Shown: positions 36,497-44,567, counted from the first letter of the stretch. The stretch: DNA of 64,000 bases from an uncultured Verrucomicrobia subdivision 3 bacterium (GCA_903875465.1 CAIQWB010000025.1:1-64000); one strand, 5' to 3'. The notes: generated by a model not told the origin, from the sequence alone. Made by a program: numbers and translations.

Positions 36497-37753
36497 ATGG
36501 ACGTCTACGATCATCCCACCTTTAACATGGCGTGCCAGCAATTCGAGCTGGTCGCCGACCAACTGGAAATTCCCGCCGCCGAGCGCCCTCGCCTCAAATT
36601 TCCCAAACGCTCGATGATTGTCTCCCTGCCCATTCAGAGCGAGGATGGCAGCATGAGGGTTTACACCGGATTCCGGGTGCAACATCACCTGACCCTGGGA
36701 CCGACCAAGGGGGGCCTGCGCTATCATCCTGCAGTGTCCCTCGGCGAAGTCGCGGCTCTGGCCATGTGGATGAGTTGGAAATGTGCCCTGACTGGCCTGC
36801 CTTATGGCGGAGCCAAAGGCGGCATTGCCTGCGACCCGCACCAACTGTCACCCCGCGAATTGGAACACCTCACGCGCCGGTACACCCAGGAAATGATGCC
36901 GTTTATCGGACCGCAAGTGGACATCATGGCCCCGGACATGGGCACGAATGAGCAAATCATGGCCTGGATGATGGACACCTACTCCGTCAATATTGGGCAT
37001 TCCGTACCCAGCATCGTCACCGGCAAACCCGTCTCCTTGGGTGGCTCGCTGGGCCGCCGGGAGGCTACCGGGCGCGGGGTGGCGCATTTGGTGGCCCGGG
37101 CGGCGGATGCCATTGGCCTGGACCTCAAACAAGCCTCCGCCGTGGTGCAGGGGTATGGCAATGTGGGGGCGGTTTCCGCCCAAACCCTGGATGGTTTTGG
37201 CGCGAATATTATCGCGGTCAGCGACGTTTTCGGCGGCGTTTATAATGCCAGGGGGTTGGATCTGGCCAAATTGAATGCCCATGTCGCACGCCACCGCACG
37301 GTCAAGGGCTTTGCTGAAGCCGAGCCAGTTACCAACGATCAGTTGCTCTTGATCCCCTGCGATGTATTGGTGCCGGCGGCCATGGAACGGCAAATCACCG
37401 GGGCCAATGCCGGGCAGATCCAGTGCCGCATCCTGGCCGAGGGAGCCAATGGACCAACCACACCAGAGGCAGACGCCATTCTGGCCCGGCGTGACGAAAT
37501 CTTGGTGATCCCTGACATTTTATGCAATGCCGGGGGTGTGGTGGTGTCCTACTTCGAGTGGGTGCAGGATTTACAGAGTTTTTTCTGGAGCGAAACGGAA
37601 GTGATGGAACGACTTTACCGCATCCTGGACGAGGCCTTTGATCGTGTGTGGCACCGCGCGCGCGACCAAAAGACCTCCCTGCGTATGGCCGCGCTGGGCG
37701 TGGGGATTCAGCGCGTGCGCGAGGCGAAAACCCTTCGTGGATTGTTTCCTTAA
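36497..37753 (+). CDS. Glu/Leu/Phe/Val dehydrogenase
   Basis: This 418-residue enzyme carries out reversible oxidative deamination of an amino acid, most likely glutamate to 2-oxoglutarate, with NAD(P). The substrate pocket motifs are GPTKGGLRYHP (K71) and LPYGGAKGGI with the catalytic K107, and the Rossmann segment is VVQGYGNVGAVSAQTL. DIMAPDMGTNEQIMAWMMDTY is typical of the hexameric GDH I/GdhA-RocG group. The leader is AT-rich (36440-36470) with no clear Shine-Dalgarno sequence. It is monocistronic and divergent from the GH8-GH115 operon. Confidence 0.94.
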   Translation: MDVYDHPTFNMACQQFELVADQLEIPAAERPRLKFPKRSMIVSLPIQSEDGSMRVYTGFRVQHHLTLGPTKGGLRYHPAVSLGEVAALAMWMSWKCALTGLPYGGAKGGIACDPHQLSPRELEHLTRRYTQEMMPFIGPQVDIMAPDMGTNEQIMAWMMDTYSVNIGHSVPSIVTGKPVSLGGSLGRREATGRGVAHLVARAADAIGLDLKQASAVVQGYGNVGAVSAQTLDGFGANIIAVSDVFGGVYNARGLDLAKLNAHVARHRTVKGFAEAEPVTNDQLLLIPCDVLVPAAMERQITGANAGQIQCRILAEGANGPTTPEADAILARRDEILVIPDILCNAGGVVVSYFEWVQDLQSFFWSETEVMERLYRILDEAFDRVWHRARDQKTSLRMAALGVGIQRVREAKTLRGLFP

Positions 37754-37773: not shown

Positions 37774-39654
37774 TCAGGGGAATTTCAATTGATAAAAACG
37801 CTGTTTCAGCCCGGGGTTGTTGGTGTCAGTAAAAGAAATGGCCCCCCCCGGCGAGGCGGTATTCGTTTGCCAGGGCAGCCAGGCCGTCGGTGCCGCGAGG
37901 TTGGTGGCCGCCTGGACGATGTAGATGCGGTTGGGAATGCCACCAGTGCTGGTGAGCATGGGATTGACACCGTTCAAAGTGGCCGTCACCCGTGGGACCG
38001 CCGCAATGACCACCGGCGCGATGGCGCTGGTAACGCTGCCGGCCGTATTGGTGACCACCACGCTATAATTGCCACTGTCGCTCAGCGCGGCCGGGGCGAT
38101 GGTCAGGTTGGTCGTGGCGACCCCAGTGAGGCTGCCGCCGTTGGCTAGGCTGGCGCTGCCTTTGCGCCACTGATAACTCAAGGGTGCCGCCCCACTGGCC
38201 GTCACGCTCAAGCTGACGCTGTTGCCCGCATAATTAGTCTGCCCCGTGGGAGCCGAGACCGCCAGGACCGGGCCAGCGATGATTAGCAATGCAGGCGCGC
38301 TGGTGATGCTGCCCCACTGATTCGTGACCACCACAGTGTAGGTGCCGGCATTACTGACAGCCAGGCTGGTAAACGTCAGGCTCACATTGGTGGCCGCGAG
38401 ATTGGCCGCAGCGGTTTGCGGATTAAAGCCCGGGGTTTGGGTGGCCACCAGGTTGGTGGCATTTTGATACCAGAACACCGCCGGCGTATTGCCCGTGACT
38501 GCGGCACTCAGCGTGGCCGTCGCCCCAATATTCGTGCTCAGGCTGGCCGGGGAGTTGGTAAAGCTAGGCACGTAGCCAAAGGACCAGTAGGAGTTATACT
38601 GCTGTTGGTTAACCAAAATATTGGTGCCGATGGAACTGTTGAAAACAATGAAATAGTTCCCACTATTGGCCGGCGTCACCTGGCTGGCCGGCAGCATCCA
38701 GGAACTGGTGGTGGGCAGGCCCGACGTCGATTGATTAAACCCCCACTGGTAAGTGTTCACCGCCGTGGCCACATTCGTAAGGGTGGTGGCCAGGGTCAGG
38801 GCGTTTCCCGCGGGATAGAAATTGGTAAAATTCAACACCAGATTATTGCTGCCCGGAGTCTGGCAGACGGTGAGGTAGCAACTGGCCGGGGTGGAAGCCA
38901 CTTTGTTACTGGCAATGAGTTGATATAAGCCGGCATTGGTTATCTGCACGTTCGTAAGGACGAGCGAATTATTCGTGGCTCCCGGAATAAAGGTGATCCC
39001 TTGTCGCCAAAAATAGGCCGGGGCGGGATTACCAATGGCCCCGCCGCTCAGGATGACCGTCGAACCAATTTGGGCGATGGCGTTTTGTGGTTGCACGGCG
39101 ATGGTGGGTGCGGTCTGGGCCAGTCCGGCGGGCTGAATGAGCAAACTGGTGGTACGGGCCGCGTCCACATTTCCCTTGGTGGAACAGCCGCTGGACTCGT
39201 AGGCAATCAGCCGGAAGGGCAGGTTGGTAAAGCTGGTGGTTAATGGGATATTCGGCGTCCCGCTCACGGTCGCGGTGTTGCCTCGAGTGTAGGTGATGGT
39301 GAGGCCCGGGGCCAGCGTTAACGATCCTGAAGCCAGGCAGCTCCCGTAGAAGCCGGTGTAACTGGCATTGGAAAGGGACATGGAGCTGACCGACCCCGCA
39401 TGGCCGCCCGAATAGGTCACTACGCCCGAGTAAAAAACCCCGTTGGTGGCGGAGGGCGGCGAGATGGAAATGCTCGAGGCACTGGAGATGGCGTCATACC
39501 CGAAGTAGGCAAGCCCGCCAGCCAGCCAGGGGAACACATAAGCCCAAGTCGGTCCGGCCGCGTTTTGCACGGCGGGCAGCACCGAGCGCAGCAAAGGCAT
39601 GAACGGCAGCAATCCCGCCAGGAGCAATGGCAGGCTTTGATTCAGTTTTTTCAT
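37774..39654 (-). CDS. Secreted protein with Ig-like repeats
   Basis: This 626-residue surface or secreted protein begins with a signal-like hydrophobic segment (SLPLLLAGLLPFMPLL). The chain is rich in Asn, Thr, Ser and Gly. It contains at least three immunoglobulin-like repeats, each with the pattern P.I...PQN..A..G..V.LS.GA.G.P.P.Y.W (about 182-265, 365-455, 460-550) and ending in ...SDSGNYSVVVTN. The final 80 residues (PNRIYIVQAATNLAAPTAWL ... RFYQLKF) are a C-terminal module seen in many Verrucomicrobia surface proteins. No catalytic domain is seen. It is 36 bases downstream of dsbD and could be the last gene of that operon. Confidence 0.85.
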   Translation of the reverse strand: MKKLNQSLPLLLAGLLPFMPLLRSVLPAVQNAAGPTWAYVFPWLAGGLAYFGYDAISSASSISISPPSATNGVFYSGVVTYSGGHAGSVSSMSLSNASYTGFYGSCLASGSLTLAPGLTITYTRGNTATVSGTPNIPLTTSFTNLPFRLIAYESSGCSTKGNVDAARTTSLLIQPAGLAQTAPTIAVQPQNAIAQIGSTVILSGGAIGNPAPAYFWRQGITFIPGATNNSLVLTNVQITNAGLYQLIASNKVASTPASCYLTVCQTPGSNNLVLNFTNFYPAGNALTLATTLTNVATAVNTYQWGFNQSTSGLPTTSSWMLPASQVTPANSGNYFIVFNSSIGTNILVNQQQYNSYWSFGYVPSFTNSPASLSTNIGATATLSAAVTGNTPAVFWYQNATNLVATQTPGFNPQTAAANLAATNVSLTFTSLAVSNAGTYTVVVTNQWGSITSAPALLIIAGPVLAVSAPTGQTNYAGNSVSLSVTASGAAPLSYQWRKGSASLANGGSLTGVATTNLTIAPAALSDSGNYSVVVTNTAGSVTSAIAPVVIAAVPRVTATLNGVNPMLTSTGGIPNRIYIVQAATNLAAPTAWLPWQTNTASPGGAISFTDTNNPGLKQRFYQLKFP

Positions 39655-39690: not shown

Positions 39691-41334
39691 TTAGTGCGCC
39701 GGAGAGGGCGTCTCGGTCGGCGGAGCCATCACCACAAAGGTAGGCAGGCCCATGGCTCCGAAATAGTCCAAGACTTCGCGCGCCGGTGATTCATTGGGGC
39801 GTTCCGCCGGGTATTTGACCACGATAAAGTCCTGCAAGTGTTTGACTACGGCACTTTGATTGAAAACGGTTTCTTCCATGGCAACGCAGTTCTTGCACCA
39901 ACTGGCGCGGAAATCAATGAATACTGGCTTATGTTCGCGGCGCGCCTGTCTTAGTGCCGAAGCGAGCTCCAGATTGGCATCGGGCACCACGGCAGCCGAA
40001 CCGGGGGCGGCGGCCAAATTGGTCTGGCTTCGCTGTGAATCATACAATCCCCAGGCCAGATGGGCATAATAGCAGGCAAAAACTACAATCAATACTCCGA
40101 AACCATGTTTGACCTGGTTCATCCATTTTCCCGGTTTGGGTAAAAACGTCAGACTGGCCCCCGCAAAAGGCCATGGCAGGGCCATGCCCAGACCCAATAG
40201 AAATGGCAGCAACAACCCGGCCACCTGGCCTTTGGCATAGAGGTTTGCCGAAAGTAGCAGCACCGAGATGACGACCGGGGCAACACAGGCCCCCGCCAGC
40301 AAGGCGGCGATGCCGCCGAAACCAAAGGCCACCAGCGAGCGGCTTTTCAAGCCCCGCACCTTGGTTCCCAGATTGCCCTCAAAGCGCGAAAAGTCCAAAT
40401 CCACTTTGCCGAACATGGCCAGTGCCAGAAAACCAAACACCAGGGCAATCACCACATTAAACCAAATGGAGGAGTTGAGGGTGCCAAATTTGGCCCCGGT
40501 CAGCACCACCATGAGTCCCAGCATGCCGTAGGTCATGGCCATGCCGGCGCCATAGACCGCACCGTGCATGAACCCTTCGCGCCGGGAACCGGCCGCTTTG
40601 CCGGCACCGATGATGGCCAGATTGATGGGAATCAAGGGCAATACACAGGGGGTGAAATTCAAACATAACCCGCCCACCAGAATGAGTAACAACGTAAGGG
40701 CCATCCCAGCCTGATTGAAGCGGTCCAAGGGATCACTACCCGAAAGCCCGGATTGGGCGTGGCGCAAAAAGTTCATAAATTCCACCGGTCCCAAATAGCC
40801 AGTCTGCCGGGCTTGCAATTTAAAACCCTGGCGTTGTTCGGTCCAGTCTTCCGCCGCCGCCACAGTTTTGGGCGGGGCAGAAACCGATTCAGCGTCCGGT
40901 TTAATAACCGCTGCCACTCCACTGGTGCTAACGAGAAATTCATGGCGCTCGGGAAAGTAACAGGCCGAGTTGCTGCAGCCCTGAAACTTAACGGTCAACC
41001 CGGCGGGCAGTGAATCCTCCAGGCGAATTTCGGCGGTAAAATCCTGATTGTAAAAATGCTTCTTCTGGCCGGTGACCTGATCCACCGCGGCCACTGGTGT
41101 CGGGATTTTAGCTGGCATTAATTCATCGCCCTGGGCGTTCAGAAAATGCAAGTGGTCGGCATACAAACGGTGATCGGGGGGAATGGCAAACGCAAAACGG
41201 ACCACCGTTGCGGCGGCGTTGGTAGCCAGCGTGGCGCTCAATTTAAAGGGACTCGGCGCCCGGGCCGCCTGCAAAGCCGGGGCCAGCAGCAGCAGTGCCA
41301 AAGCGAGGATACGCCTCCAACCGGCAAATCGCAT
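39691..41334 (-). CDS. dsbD: Thiol:disulfide interchange protein DsbD
   Basis: The protein of 547 residues carries electrons from cytoplasmic thioredoxin across the membrane. It has a signal peptide (ILALALLLLAPALQA), an N-terminal DsbD-alpha-like domain with FQGCSNSACYFPER, a central region of eight helices opening with LNFTPCVLPLIPINL and containing GACVAPVV (the two transmembrane cysteines), and a C-terminal thioredoxin domain with FRASWCKNCVAMEE (C480/C483). I chose ATG 41334; a TTG at 41364 overlaps the previous gene. It is the fifth gene of the DUF3570 operon and probably supplies reductant to its TlpA protein. Confidence 0.93.
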   Translation of the reverse strand: MRFAGWRRILALALLLLAPALQAARAPSPFKLSATLATNAAATVVRFAFAIPPDHRLYADHLHFLNAQGDELMPAKIPTPVAAVDQVTGQKKHFYNQDFTAEIRLEDSLPAGLTVKFQGCSNSACYFPERHEFLVSTSGVAAVIKPDAESVSAPPKTVAAAEDWTEQRQGFKLQARQTGYLGPVEFMNFLRHAQSGLSGSDPLDRFNQAGMALTLLLILVGGLCLNFTPCVLPLIPINLAIIGAGKAAGSRREGFMHGAVYGAGMAMTYGMLGLMVVLTGAKFGTLNSSIWFNVVIALVFGFLALAMFGKVDLDFSRFEGNLGTKVRGLKSRSLVAFGFGGIAALLAGACVAPVVISVLLLSANLYAKGQVAGLLLPFLLGLGMALPWPFAGASLTFLPKPGKWMNQVKHGFGVLIVVFACYYAHLAWGLYDSQRSQTNLAAAPGSAAVVPDANLELASALRQARREHKPVFIDFRASWCKNCVAMEETVFNQSAVVKHLQDFIVVKYPAERPNESPAREVLDYFGAMGLPTFVVMAPPTETPSPAH

Positions 41335-41354
41335 GGGGAGGTTCGTATTCACAG

Positions 41355-41573
41355 TTAGTTGCAACCGCAGCCACCGCCGCCAACCCCTTTGCCTCCAGTG
41401 GCCATTTCCCGGGAAAAGTACACGTGATCCATTTGGCCCTCACCCAAGGGGTCGCGGTCACCGCGCATGGTGTAATCAGCGAGTGTGCCCCGCTGCCAGG
41501 GTTTGACGGACTGACAACCGGTCATGGCCAGTCCAAAAAACGCGAGGCCGAAGGCAAGCAACTTGATTTTCAT
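41355..41573 (-). CDS. DUF4266 small lipoprotein
   Basis: This 72-residue lipoprotein has the lipobox GLAMTGC (C20) followed by QSVKPWQRGTLADYTMRGDR, which is the DUF4266 signature, and ends in a Gly/Cys-rich tail GGKGVGGGGCGCN. The two tail cysteines could bind metal or act as redox thiols (inference). It starts 4 bases after the TlpA-like gene. DUF4266 is known to sit with DUF3570, ApbE and thioredoxin-like genes; no molecular function is established. Confidence 0.88.
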   Translation of the reverse strand: MKIKLLAFGLAFFGLAMTGCQSVKPWQRGTLADYTMRGDRDPLGEGQMDHVYFSREMATGGKGVGGGGCGCN

Positions 41574-41577
41574 GGTC

Positions 41578-42078
41578 TTAATGCTTCAATAATGAGGCGA
41601 TTTCTTTTTCATAGGCCGCCTGGCTTTCACTGCCATGAAAGCCGCTGTGGACGAACGCGACCTTGCCGTCCGTCCCTAGCAAAAACGAACTGGGCATTAC
41701 GGACACATCTACTTTATCCACCAGTTTTTGCTTCGCGTCGCGCACAATGGTGAAGGCCACGTGATGGGTTTTGAGAAAGTCGTCCATGTCGCTTTTGTTT
41801 TCATCCACGTTAATGGCCACGATGACGAAGCCCGCCGGGCCGTACTTCTTTTGCAAGGCGTCCATTACGGGAAACGATTCACCGCAGGGACCGCACCAGG
41901 AGGCCCAAAAATCCAGCAGCACCACCTTGCCGGCCAGCGTCTCCGGTAATTTGCCCTCTAGTTGATAGCGGGCAAGGTCGGGGAGCGGGTCCCCGGTTTT
42001 CAGTCCGGCGTGGGCAATGGACCCGGTTACGTCGAAGGCGGCCGCCAGGATGAGGTTTTTAAGCAGGGATGAATTCAT
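41578..42078 (-). CDS. TlpA/ResA-type thiol-disulfide oxidoreductase
   Basis: This 166-residue secreted thioredoxin-like protein has a signal peptide ([18 protein letters not shown], about 1-24), the redox motif [14 protein letters not shown] (C62, C65), the TlpA insertion [20 protein letters not shown] and the cis-proline loop [15 protein letters not shown]. It should keep a partner protein's cysteines reduced in the periplasm, itself recharged by DsbD two genes downstream. The start overlaps the end of apbE by 20 bases, showing translational coupling. Confidence 0.9.
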
Positions 42079-43114
42079 GGAATTTTCGGGAGTAAAACCG
42101 CGTGGCGTTGGTGGTGATCACGCCAGCCGCGCCCGGGTGCAGGTCCAGCAGGCGCAAACCTTCCTGCGCGCCCAGGATGCAGGCGCTGGTGGCCAGCAGG
42201 CCGGCAATGGTACAACTGGGGGCAATCACCGTGACCGCGCGCACCTCGTTCAAGGCGGGATAACCCGTGCGCGGATCCAAAATGTGGCCGTACCGGATGC
42301 CATCCAGCACAAAGTGCCGCACGTAATCGCCCGAAGTGGCGACAGCATGATCCGTGACCGGCACACCAATCCAGGGCTGGCCGGGGGCCAGGGCATTGTC
42401 CAGACCGACGCCCCAGAAGGTTTTGTCGGGCGCGTGCCCCCGCGCCCGGACATCCTGCCCGAAATCCACTAAGACATTGGGAATGCCGCGTTGGATCGCC
42501 AGATTAAGGACGCAGTCCACCGCGTATTCCTTGCCGATGCCCCCCAAATCGATGGCCATGCCGCGCTGCGGCAGGAAAATGCCGCCGGGCCGGCGCTGGA
42601 TTTTGTTCCATCCCACCAACTCGCGGGTGGCTTGAATCGCCTCCGGAGCGGGCCGAACCGGCGGCGTTTGCTTCCAATTCCAAAGCTGGATCAGGGGCAG
42701 CGCACTTGGGTCAAATGCCCCCCGCGTGAAGAAAAACAATTCCTGGCACAATTGAAAGATCCGGTCCGTTTCCGGATCGGTCTCCACCCAATGCTCGCCC
42801 GCAGCGGCGTTGATCCGGCTAATCAGGCTGTCCGGAATAAACCGCGAATAGCGGGCCTCAAAGGCCGCCACCCAACTCACCACCTCGCGCTGAAATTCAC
42901 GAATTACGGCTTCTGACCCACCATGGGCATTCACCCGGCAATGGGTGCCCATCGCGTGAAATTCCAGACGGTTCAGGCTTTTATCCCGCCGTGTGGAAAC
43001 TGATTTAGCAACCCTTCGGGCCACGTCGCCAGCCCTGACCACCGGCAGCATCACGGCGCCACGCGCGGTGGGTGTCATGCGGTTGCCATTCGGTTGAGCG
43101 GTGGAGTGGATCAT
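42059..43114 (-). CDS. apbE: FAD:protein FMN transferase (ApbE family)
   Basis: The protein of 351 residues covalently attaches FMN from FAD to a Thr/Ser in target proteins. Family motifs are [50 protein letters not shown] and [11 protein letters not shown]. In the late metal-site segment, usually A-D-A-x-x-T, this protein reads [15 protein letters not shown]: the Thr remains but the Asp is Gly. No clear signal peptide precedes it from ATG 43114; a longer frame from 43180 overlaps the DUF3570 gene. The likely target is the DUF3570 product encoded 13 bases upstream. Confidence 0.9.
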
Positions 43115-43127
43115 TGGACTTGGCCCG

Positions 43128-44567
43128 TTAAAACCAGAGCCGAAAGCCAGCGCTGAAAATATTGGCGGAAGGATAAGCACTCTGTGAAGTCTGGCCGTCC
43201 AGGCCCTCCATCACGTAACGGGCATAACTCAAGTCGGCGGACCAATGTTTCGCCAGCCGGTAAGTCAGGCTCAAACCCAGGGTGTACGACTGCATTTCGC
43301 TCAAACGATAATCGGAGGAGTAAAACTCCGGTTTGGTGTTAAAGTCCGGCACGATGACGTAATAGTAATTAGCCGCCGTTTGGTAATAATAACGGAACGA
43401 AGGGGTTAAAACCCAGTTACGGCCGAATTTCTGATGCCAGGCCACCTCTGCCGTTTGGGCAAAAATTTCCGAGGTGTCGTGAAAAAACCGGTAGCCAAGG
43501 TCCAAACTGCCGTTCAGCGGGGTGATAAACTGGGTGTACGAGGTATAAAAAGTCACCTTGTCGCGATGGCGCGGCCGGACTTCCGGGGTCAGCGAGGCGT
43601 CGCTGGGGTTGGTTTGGAGAAAGTTTTGGAGAAAAATCACCCCCCGGTAAGGGTCGGCCAGATAACCATGCTCGGTCCCATAAGTCAGGTCGCAAGTGAT
43701 ATAGCTCTTGGGTGTCAGGATCTGGTTGATGCCCACCAGGAAATCATGGCTGATCTTTTTCTGCCAGTTCACCTCGGTGTCATCGCGCACCCGGTCGTTA
43801 TTGAATGACCAGCCGGCACTCAGCGTGGTGTTTTTTTGATTCAACTGAATGGCGTAATTCAGCGCGAGACCATAAGAGTGGTAATCGCTCTCCTTGCTAA
43901 CCGAAACCTCCGGGGTGAGGGTTTGAATGCCAAATGTAATGGGCGCATTCAGAGAGAACGCCCGTCGATGATCCTTCAGATGCGTGACTGGCACCTTGGT
44001 GTTTCGGAAATTCGGATTATTCGTCAGGCTGTTATAACTGCCCGCGGCGCTGTTGGTGGCCTGACCGGCAATATTATAAGTGGAGGCAATATAATTGGTA
44101 TAATCCTGGGAGGTCGCAAAATAACCACCGGTTAGCAAGGACAGGTTGCCGGGGTCACCCGCATTCAATTGGAGCAGTTGATTATAGGCCGTTTGATAAA
44201 AATCCGCGAATTTGGGATAAGGCCATTGTGACTGCGGGGGCGCGCCGGTGGGGGTCGCCCCGGAAATGGCGTCCTCCACATATTTACCGCTGAGCTTGAG
44301 GAACTTGTTGACGGTGACATCGGCCAGGACCGAGTCCGTGTCCACATTGATGCGGTTATCATCCTCGCGATACCACTCGTGGCGGTAATCAATATGATCC
44401 TCCTCCGCCAGCACCCGGTTGGTTCGGGCGAGCAAAAGCAGGATCAGTAATAAGTACAGGTGACGGCTGGTGTTCCAGTTTGGCCACCGCTCCATTGAAA
44501 AACAGGGAATCATTTTAAACATGGCTGCCTTCTCCATAACCAAACGACCAACCTGCCAAAACCGCAC
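43128..44567 (-). CDS. DUF3570 protein, predicted outer-membrane barrel with flavinylation motif
   Basis: This protein of up to 479 residues has a hydrophobic signal segment (HLYLLLILLLLARTNRVLA, about 37-54), so the true start may be a Met at 11, 16, 19 or 25. The mature chain alternates short aromatic strands (for example SYTLGLSLTYRLAKHWSADL), ends in FSAGFRLWF with a terminal Phe, and fits an outer-membrane beta-barrel of the DUF3570 family. Residues 99-107, DAISGATPT, match the consensus for ApbE-mediated FMN attachment (D-x-x-S/T-G-A-T/S), with T105 as acceptor candidate. It heads the operon with apbE, tlpA-like, DUF4266 and dsbD genes. Confidence 0.85.
   Translation of the reverse strand: MRFWQVGRLVMEKAAMFKMIPCFSMERWPNWNTSRHLYLLLILLLLARTNRVLAEEDHIDYRHEWYREDDNRINVDTDSVLADVTVNKFLKLSGKYVEDAISGATPTGAPPQSQWPYPKFADFYQTAYNQLLQLNAGDPGNLSLLTGGYFATSQDYTNYIASTYNIAGQATNSAAGSYNSLTNNPNFRNTKVPVTHLKDHRRAFSLNAPITFGIQTLTPEVSVSKESDYHSYGLALNYAIQLNQKNTTLSAGWSFNNDRVRDDTEVNWQKKISHDFLVGINQILTPKSYITCDLTYGTEHGYLADPYRGVIFLQNFLQTNPSDASLTPEVRPRHRDKVTFYTSYTQFITPLNGSLDLGYRFFHDTSEIFAQTAEVAWHQKFGRNWVLTPSFRYYYQTAANYYYVIVPDFNTKPEFYSSDYRLSEMQSYTLGLSLTYRLAKHWSADLSYARYVMEGLDGQTSQSAYPSANIFSAGFRLWF
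44247..44273 (-). other. Predicted FMN-attachment motif in the DUF3570 gene
   Basis: These 27 bases encode DAISGATPT (residues 99-107), resembling the flavinylated sites of NqrC/RnfG-type FMN-binding domains (DAxSGATxT). The next gene is the FMN transferase. Modification is predicted from motif and context only. Confidence 0.55.

Follow-up and report, generated by a model that had tools for sequence, protein, structure and literature searches.

A putative six-gene envelope redox operon with a predicted flavin-bearing DUF3570 barrel and an Ig-domain protein in a Verrucomicrobial genome

The window analysed here, a stretch of 64,000 nucleotides from an uncultured Verrucomicrobia subdivision 3 bacterium, carries on its minus strand six successive genes encoding a DUF3570 protein, an ApbE-family protein, a TlpA/ResA-like thioredoxin, a DUF4266 lipoprotein, a DsbD-like electron carrier, and an Ig-domain protein, which we read, at about even chances, as an envelope redox operon in which a flavin-tagged outer-membrane barrel would be fed by a thiol chain. 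A sequence-only reading of the first five genes had proposed extracytoplasmic flavinylation of the barrel and had presented DsbD as the added element that makes the electron path explicit. The part of it that stands is a DUF3570 barrel predicted to bear covalent FMN and tied to a chain of DsbD, thioredoxin, and CXC-bearing lipoprotein, as is consistent with structural models and with a published account (PMC8238504); the novelty of DsbD does not hold, and the term "extracytoplasmic" is doubtful here. That account (eLife, 2021) describes clusters in which ApbE and DUF3570 occur with a thioredoxin-like protein and DUF4266, shows a DUF3570 protein carrying covalent flavin attached by its ApbE, and counts 285 clusters with DsbD (227 of them with DUF3570), which it proposes as the same electron source. 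As both the association and the flavinylation of DUF3570 are thereby published, the core five-gene idea is a member of a published kind and not new; no other paper on DUF3570 or DUF4266 was found in the literature searched. What varies in the window is an ApbE that lacks a catalytic-centre Asp and is probably cytosolic, together with a dedicated Ig-domain partner.

Organisation and distribution of the operon

All five ORFs of the sequence-only reading were recovered at their proposed minus-strand positions, each with a Pfam match above the cut-off, and the tight spacing claimed for them holds, with one gap of 4 bases and otherwise overlaps of 53, 20, and 10 bases between the longest ORFs. The DUF3570 gene (nt. 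43128–44567) comes first, followed by apbE (nt. 42059–43180), the thioredoxin gene (nt. 41578–42078), the DUF4266 gene (nt. 41355–41573), and dsbD (nt. 39691–41364). Within these longest ORFs, an ATG at nt. 44522 is probably the start of the DUF3570 gene rather than the GTG, an ATG at nt. 43078 or 43051 is likelier than the GTG for apbE, and the ATG at nt. 41334 is the likely start of the DsbD-like protein. The sixth and last gene, absent from the earlier five-gene reading, lies 36 bases after dsbD on the same strand (nt. 37774–39654) and encodes the Ig-domain protein, a same-strand neighbour of the cassette in most related loci. Convergent with it on the plus strand is a gene for a Glu/Leu/Phe/Val-type dehydrogenase (nt. 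36497–37753). Scans for promoters and terminators returned nothing decisive.

The comparison set comprised about 120 related loci. DUF3570 was found in 42 of the 388 genomes sampled from the phylum, and the surroundings of these carriers were retrieved; a genome-contig search with a DUF4266 alignment recovered 80 further loci, and the same kind of search with a single DUF3570 protein as the query gave no matches. The related loci show strong conservation of the gene order DUF3570-ApbE-TlpA-DUF4266. A minority of them (L079, L080, L081, L083, L084, L091, L093, L108, and L143) have DsbD next to the cassette, and these are mainly assigned by label to Verrucomicrobia subdivision 3, Limisphaerales, or Verrucomicrobiia.

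Individual loci depart from this arrangement. L084 holds two cassettes that differ in gene order, of which one has no apbE, and in L057 the DUF3570 gene (L057:8079-9487) is split over three ORFs with an internal TAG, the rest of the cassette being apparently intact. In the Gammaproteobacterial cassettes L129, L133, L146, and L151, a conserved gene adjoins upstream of the TlpA gene; the one scanned (L133:5311-8022) matched the hydrazine synthase alpha middle domain and, weakly, PD40.

The DUF3570 barrel and its predicted flavin site

The DUF3570 protein (Pfam match, 4e-62) is predicted to be a 16-strand outer-membrane barrel. The AlphaFold model of the window protein shows this barrel at a mean pLDDT of 81 (strands mostly >90), the model of a distant Gammaproteobacterial homologue (L144) shows a similar one at pLDDT 86, and the matches from structural comparison were outer-membrane barrels, with VIA Z reaching 22.5 (rmsd 3.3 over 276 residues), all of which bears out the earlier assignment of the protein as a barrel. 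The even strand number, a signal sequence, and a C-terminal F are outer-membrane barrel features that the protein also displays. Given that the fold searches match many barrels, we draw no functional relative from them. The idea that conserved residues cluster towards the outer side of the barrel was tested and set aside as not significant (Fisher p 0.15 for the strands, 0.60 overall).

The motif DAISGATPT is present at residues 99–107, as had been claimed, when numbering starts at the GTG. Its first seven residues, DAISGAT (residues 99–105, nt. 44253–44273, minus strand), agree with the proposed ApbE acceptor consensus, fitting D-x-x-[ST]-G-A-[ST], a 7-residue peptide that suffices as an ApbE tag (PMC12052999); SGAT occupies residues 102–105, and T105 is the predicted FMN site. 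A match to D..[ST]GA[ST] arises in 0.3% of shuffles of the window protein, and the pattern [DN]-x-[ILVM]-[STAV]-G-[AS]-[TS]-P-x-G is matched by 105 of the 107 main-clade DUF3570 proteins (rows that include near-duplicates, 100 being distinct), a conservation that excludes a chance origin of the motif. A second motif in the window protein is matched only partially, by TGAP, leaving one strict motif. In the divergent DUF3570 clade and in Gammaproteobacteria, the first motif position reads D-x-V-[ST]-S-A-S, and another motif, for example [ST]GAS, usually follows 8 to 16 residues further on.

Conservation of the motif is not confined to cassettes with a linked apbE, as the sequence-only reading had envisaged. 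The main-clade consensus D-x-I-[STA]-G-A-[TS]-P-x-G is near-universal with or without an adjacent apbE, and Verrucomicrobial cassettes without one retain it; in all eight such Verrucomicrobial genomes examined, the best ApbE match, whether elsewhere in the genome or within a second cassette, belongs to the cassette type. Since no FMN_bind protein, the classical substrate of ApbE, was found in the window genome, the DUF3570 protein is the best candidate substrate there.

In the models of both the window protein and L144, strand beta3 ends with the first acceptor motif, after which comes the loop to beta4, and the long loops are those joining an odd strand to the next even one. Such long loops are extracellular in the usual barrel topology, and so the acceptor motif would sit on the extracellular side of the barrel, at the outer end of strand 3, if the modelled protein is oriented in the usual way.

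The Ig-domain protein

The Ig-domain protein begins with an N-terminal element of about 80 residues (nt. 39415–39654, minus strand), which matches only once in the 5.3 Mb window genome. Among the same 388 genomes, the element was found in 25 of the 42 with DUF3570 and in none of the 346 others, and within the window's own class it was found in 25 of 26 DUF3570 genomes; for this co-occurrence, Fisher p is about 2e-28, a value that overstates independence owing to the kinship of the genomes. Some copies lie away from the cassette, still in genomes that have one. One neighbour cluster (c0) mixed Ig proteins with response regulators, and the two were separated with a profile of the N-terminal element. 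We infer from this distribution that the Ig-domain protein is a dedicated partner of the cassette.

Variation was seen in how the gene is placed. Two or more Ig-type proteins with the common N-terminal element follow the cassette in tandem in L045 (L045:10738-14017), L047, L087, and L104. In the Opitutaceae-type loci L058, L088, L105, and L136, the cassette is separated from the Ig-domain gene by genes for a response regulator and a histidine kinase, a placement that suggests dedicated regulation.

The element ends in [HDN]-x-[VL]-[AS]-G-A-[TS], the version in the window being DAISSAS (residues 54–60, nt. 39475–39495, minus strand). In a profile over 98 aligned homologues, the final Thr/Ser is present in 98 and the Gly in 86, while 92 have a His, Asp, or Asn six residues ahead of the Thr/Ser. 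The residue at −3 agrees in many loci with that of the DUF3570 protein, for which shared ancestry may be the explanation. The motif resembles an ApbE acceptor, and it could equally be a signal-peptidase site, the N-terminus comprising two hydrophobic parts split by charged residues and a possible cleavage site. As the motif also fits cleavage, we do not take its status as a second acceptor as proved. We regard as evenly balanced the alternative in which it is a mere signal-peptidase site ending a long two-part signal, and the cassette a dedicated secretion or surface-display system for the Ig-domain protein. A small residue at −3 and an Ala at −1 before the Thr/Ser suit that alternative, as do the presence in some relatives of Ser, Ala, Gln, or Arg instead of the Gly and the likeness of the two hydrophobic parts and their charged spacer to long autotransporter signals (PMC2805444). 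However, the conservation recorded in the profile exceeds the needs of cleavage, and a general signal would not be restricted to one protein per genome.

The ApbE of the cassette

The ApbE of the window matches PF02424 at 1.7e-69 and solved ApbE structures at E 4e-34. Its Ala326-Gly327 (nt. 42200–42205, minus strand) stands in place of the Ala-Asp of other ApbEs, all 102 rows of the cassette type have Ala-Gly there, and in a tree of 54 ApbE rows the Ala-Gly type makes up one side of a branch with support of 100/97. Ser, His, and Asp are the conserved catalytic-centre residues of ApbE (PMC12052999); Ser283 and His299 are invariant, and given that the Asp is replaced by Gly327, we have filed the window protein as ApbE family only, its FMN transferase activity being predicted. 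Loss of the Asp may weaken or change that activity. The window genome also encodes a second, distant ApbE-family protein of the Asp type, with no evident signal peptide (G000:C99:137204-137938; L004).

Signal peptides were called on ApbE by a count of N-terminal hydrophobicity with a cut-off of 1.6. The median for the cassette ApbE was 0.67, compared to 1.86 to 2.26 for DUF3570, TlpA, and DUF4266 in the same loci; two of the 102 cassette-type rows exceeded the cut-off (L142, which is not cassette-adjacent, and L044, which is marginal), and a signal peptide or lipobox was otherwise not recognisable in the orthologues. Read from the GTG, the window ApbE does have a hydrophobic stretch in its first 18 residues; this stretch lies inside the DUF3570 gene, and same-genus orthologues start downstream of it. 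Given this lack of a recognisable signal peptide, the cassette ApbE is probably cytosolic and would flavinylate its target before export, which is what makes the "extracytoplasmic" label doubtful.

It is possible, though unlikely, that the published model applies unchanged, with a periplasmic ApbE, its signal unrecognised or its start elsewhere, modifying the barrel before insertion. Typical ApbEs are periplasmic lipoproteins (PMC12052999), the longest ORF in the window has the hydrophobic start just described, and in the divergent DUF3570 clade (L073–L076) the linked ApbEs have hydrophobic N-termini and keep the Asp; however, about a hundred orthologues have no signal-like N-terminus, and their lengths leave little room for one. 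Export of a flavin-tagged chain is conceivable, given that fluorescein-labelled proOmpA passes SecYEG (PMC11131593), although no case was found in the literature in which Sec exports a chain carrying FMN.

That the Asp-less ApbE no longer flavinylates DUF3570 and does something else, DUF3570 being either served by another ApbE or left unmodified, is improbable: the Gly at one of three catalytic-centre positions in 102/102 rows and the presence of a second, Asp-type ApbE in the window genome speak for it, but Ser283 and His299 are invariant, the acceptor motif is retained wherever the cassette-type ApbE occurs, and the C. luteolum pair, whose ApbE may be of either the Gly or the Asp type, was active in the published work (PMC8238504).

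The thiol chain and a proposed mechanism

The thiol sites of the remaining proteins are complete. The DsbD-like protein has its N-terminal, membrane, and thioredoxin domains (DsbD_N; DsbD_TM, 4e-35; Thioredoxin_7) and three cysteine pairs, C130/C135 (C-x4-C, in the N-terminal domain), C240/C360, and C490/C493, and it missed the NCBIfam cut-off for full-length DsbD (204 of 330 bits). The TlpA/ResA-like thioredoxin (Redoxin Pfam, 9e-20) has a signal peptide and C62-x-x-C65. The small DUF4266 lipoprotein (Pfam, 7.7e-21) has an invariant lipobox cysteine, C20, and an equally invariant CXC tail (C69 and C71; nt. 41361–41369, minus strand).

Building on gene content, motif conservation, the predicted fold with its placement of the motif, the clade of the cassette ApbE, and the co-occurrence of the Ig element, we propose the following course, in which the compartment of the first step and all later steps stay conditional. 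A cytosolic ApbE would recognise DAISGAT as a linear motif in the still unfolded DUF3570 precursor and transfer FMN from FAD to T105. The tagged precursor would then be exported by Sec and inserted as the 16-strand outer-membrane barrel, with the flavin at the outer end of beta3. Electrons would pass from the cytosol to DsbD, the TlpA-like thioredoxin, the CXC tail of DUF4266, and the flavin, an order suggested by gene content in a family where most relatives have no adjacent DsbD. Finally, the flavin would reduce an acceptor, located either on the cell surface or in the Ig-domain protein of the operon. The fuller version, in which the clade of cytosolic Asp-less ApbEs tags both the barrel and the Ig-domain protein before export and so serves a haem-free electron route across the outer membrane, we hold to be decidedly doubtful.

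Covalent attachment of flavin to exported proteins is held to be periplasmic. If a cytosolic ApbE does serve an outer-membrane barrel, bacteria export flavin-bearing chains, and a cytochrome-free route of electrons to the cell surface would be suggested. A concrete pointer to the purpose of the orphan DUF3570 system comes from the Ig-domain partner, which within the sampled phylum is tied to genomes with the cassette.

Comparison with known systems

The closest relatives are the published DUF3570 clusters, which share the clustering of DUF3570, ApbE, thioredoxin-like, and DUF4266 genes with the window and, with DsbD, have the same five families and proposed electron source, so that DsbD is not the new element it had been taken for (PMC8238504). 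In that account, the DUF3570 protein has two acceptor motifs, whereas that of the window has one; target genes were screened for signal peptides; the passages on these clusters name no Ig protein, whereas the window operon has one; and the main text gives no barrel fold for DUF3570, which is modelled here. The cytosolic ApbE of Klebsiella pneumoniae (PMC12052999) likewise has no signal peptide and uses a D-x-x-[ST]-G-A-[ST] site, but its target is a soluble fumarate reductase that stays in the cytosol, unlike the predicted target in the window, an exported outer-membrane protein.

The Gammaproteobacterial clusters L129, L133, L144, L146, L151, and L155 have the barrel, the thioredoxin, and the CXC lipoprotein in common with the window, but differ in gene order and usually have no adjacent ApbE; their first motif is D-x-V-[ST]-S-A-S, and several have an [ST]GAS-like second one across the beta3-beta4 loop.

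In the multi-haem porin conduits of the MtrCAB type, a barrel is proposed to carry electrons to the cell surface. The fold match is that of barrels in general, and the likeness is one of functional analogy, the window operon encoding no cytochrome and having instead a predicted flavin and thiols.
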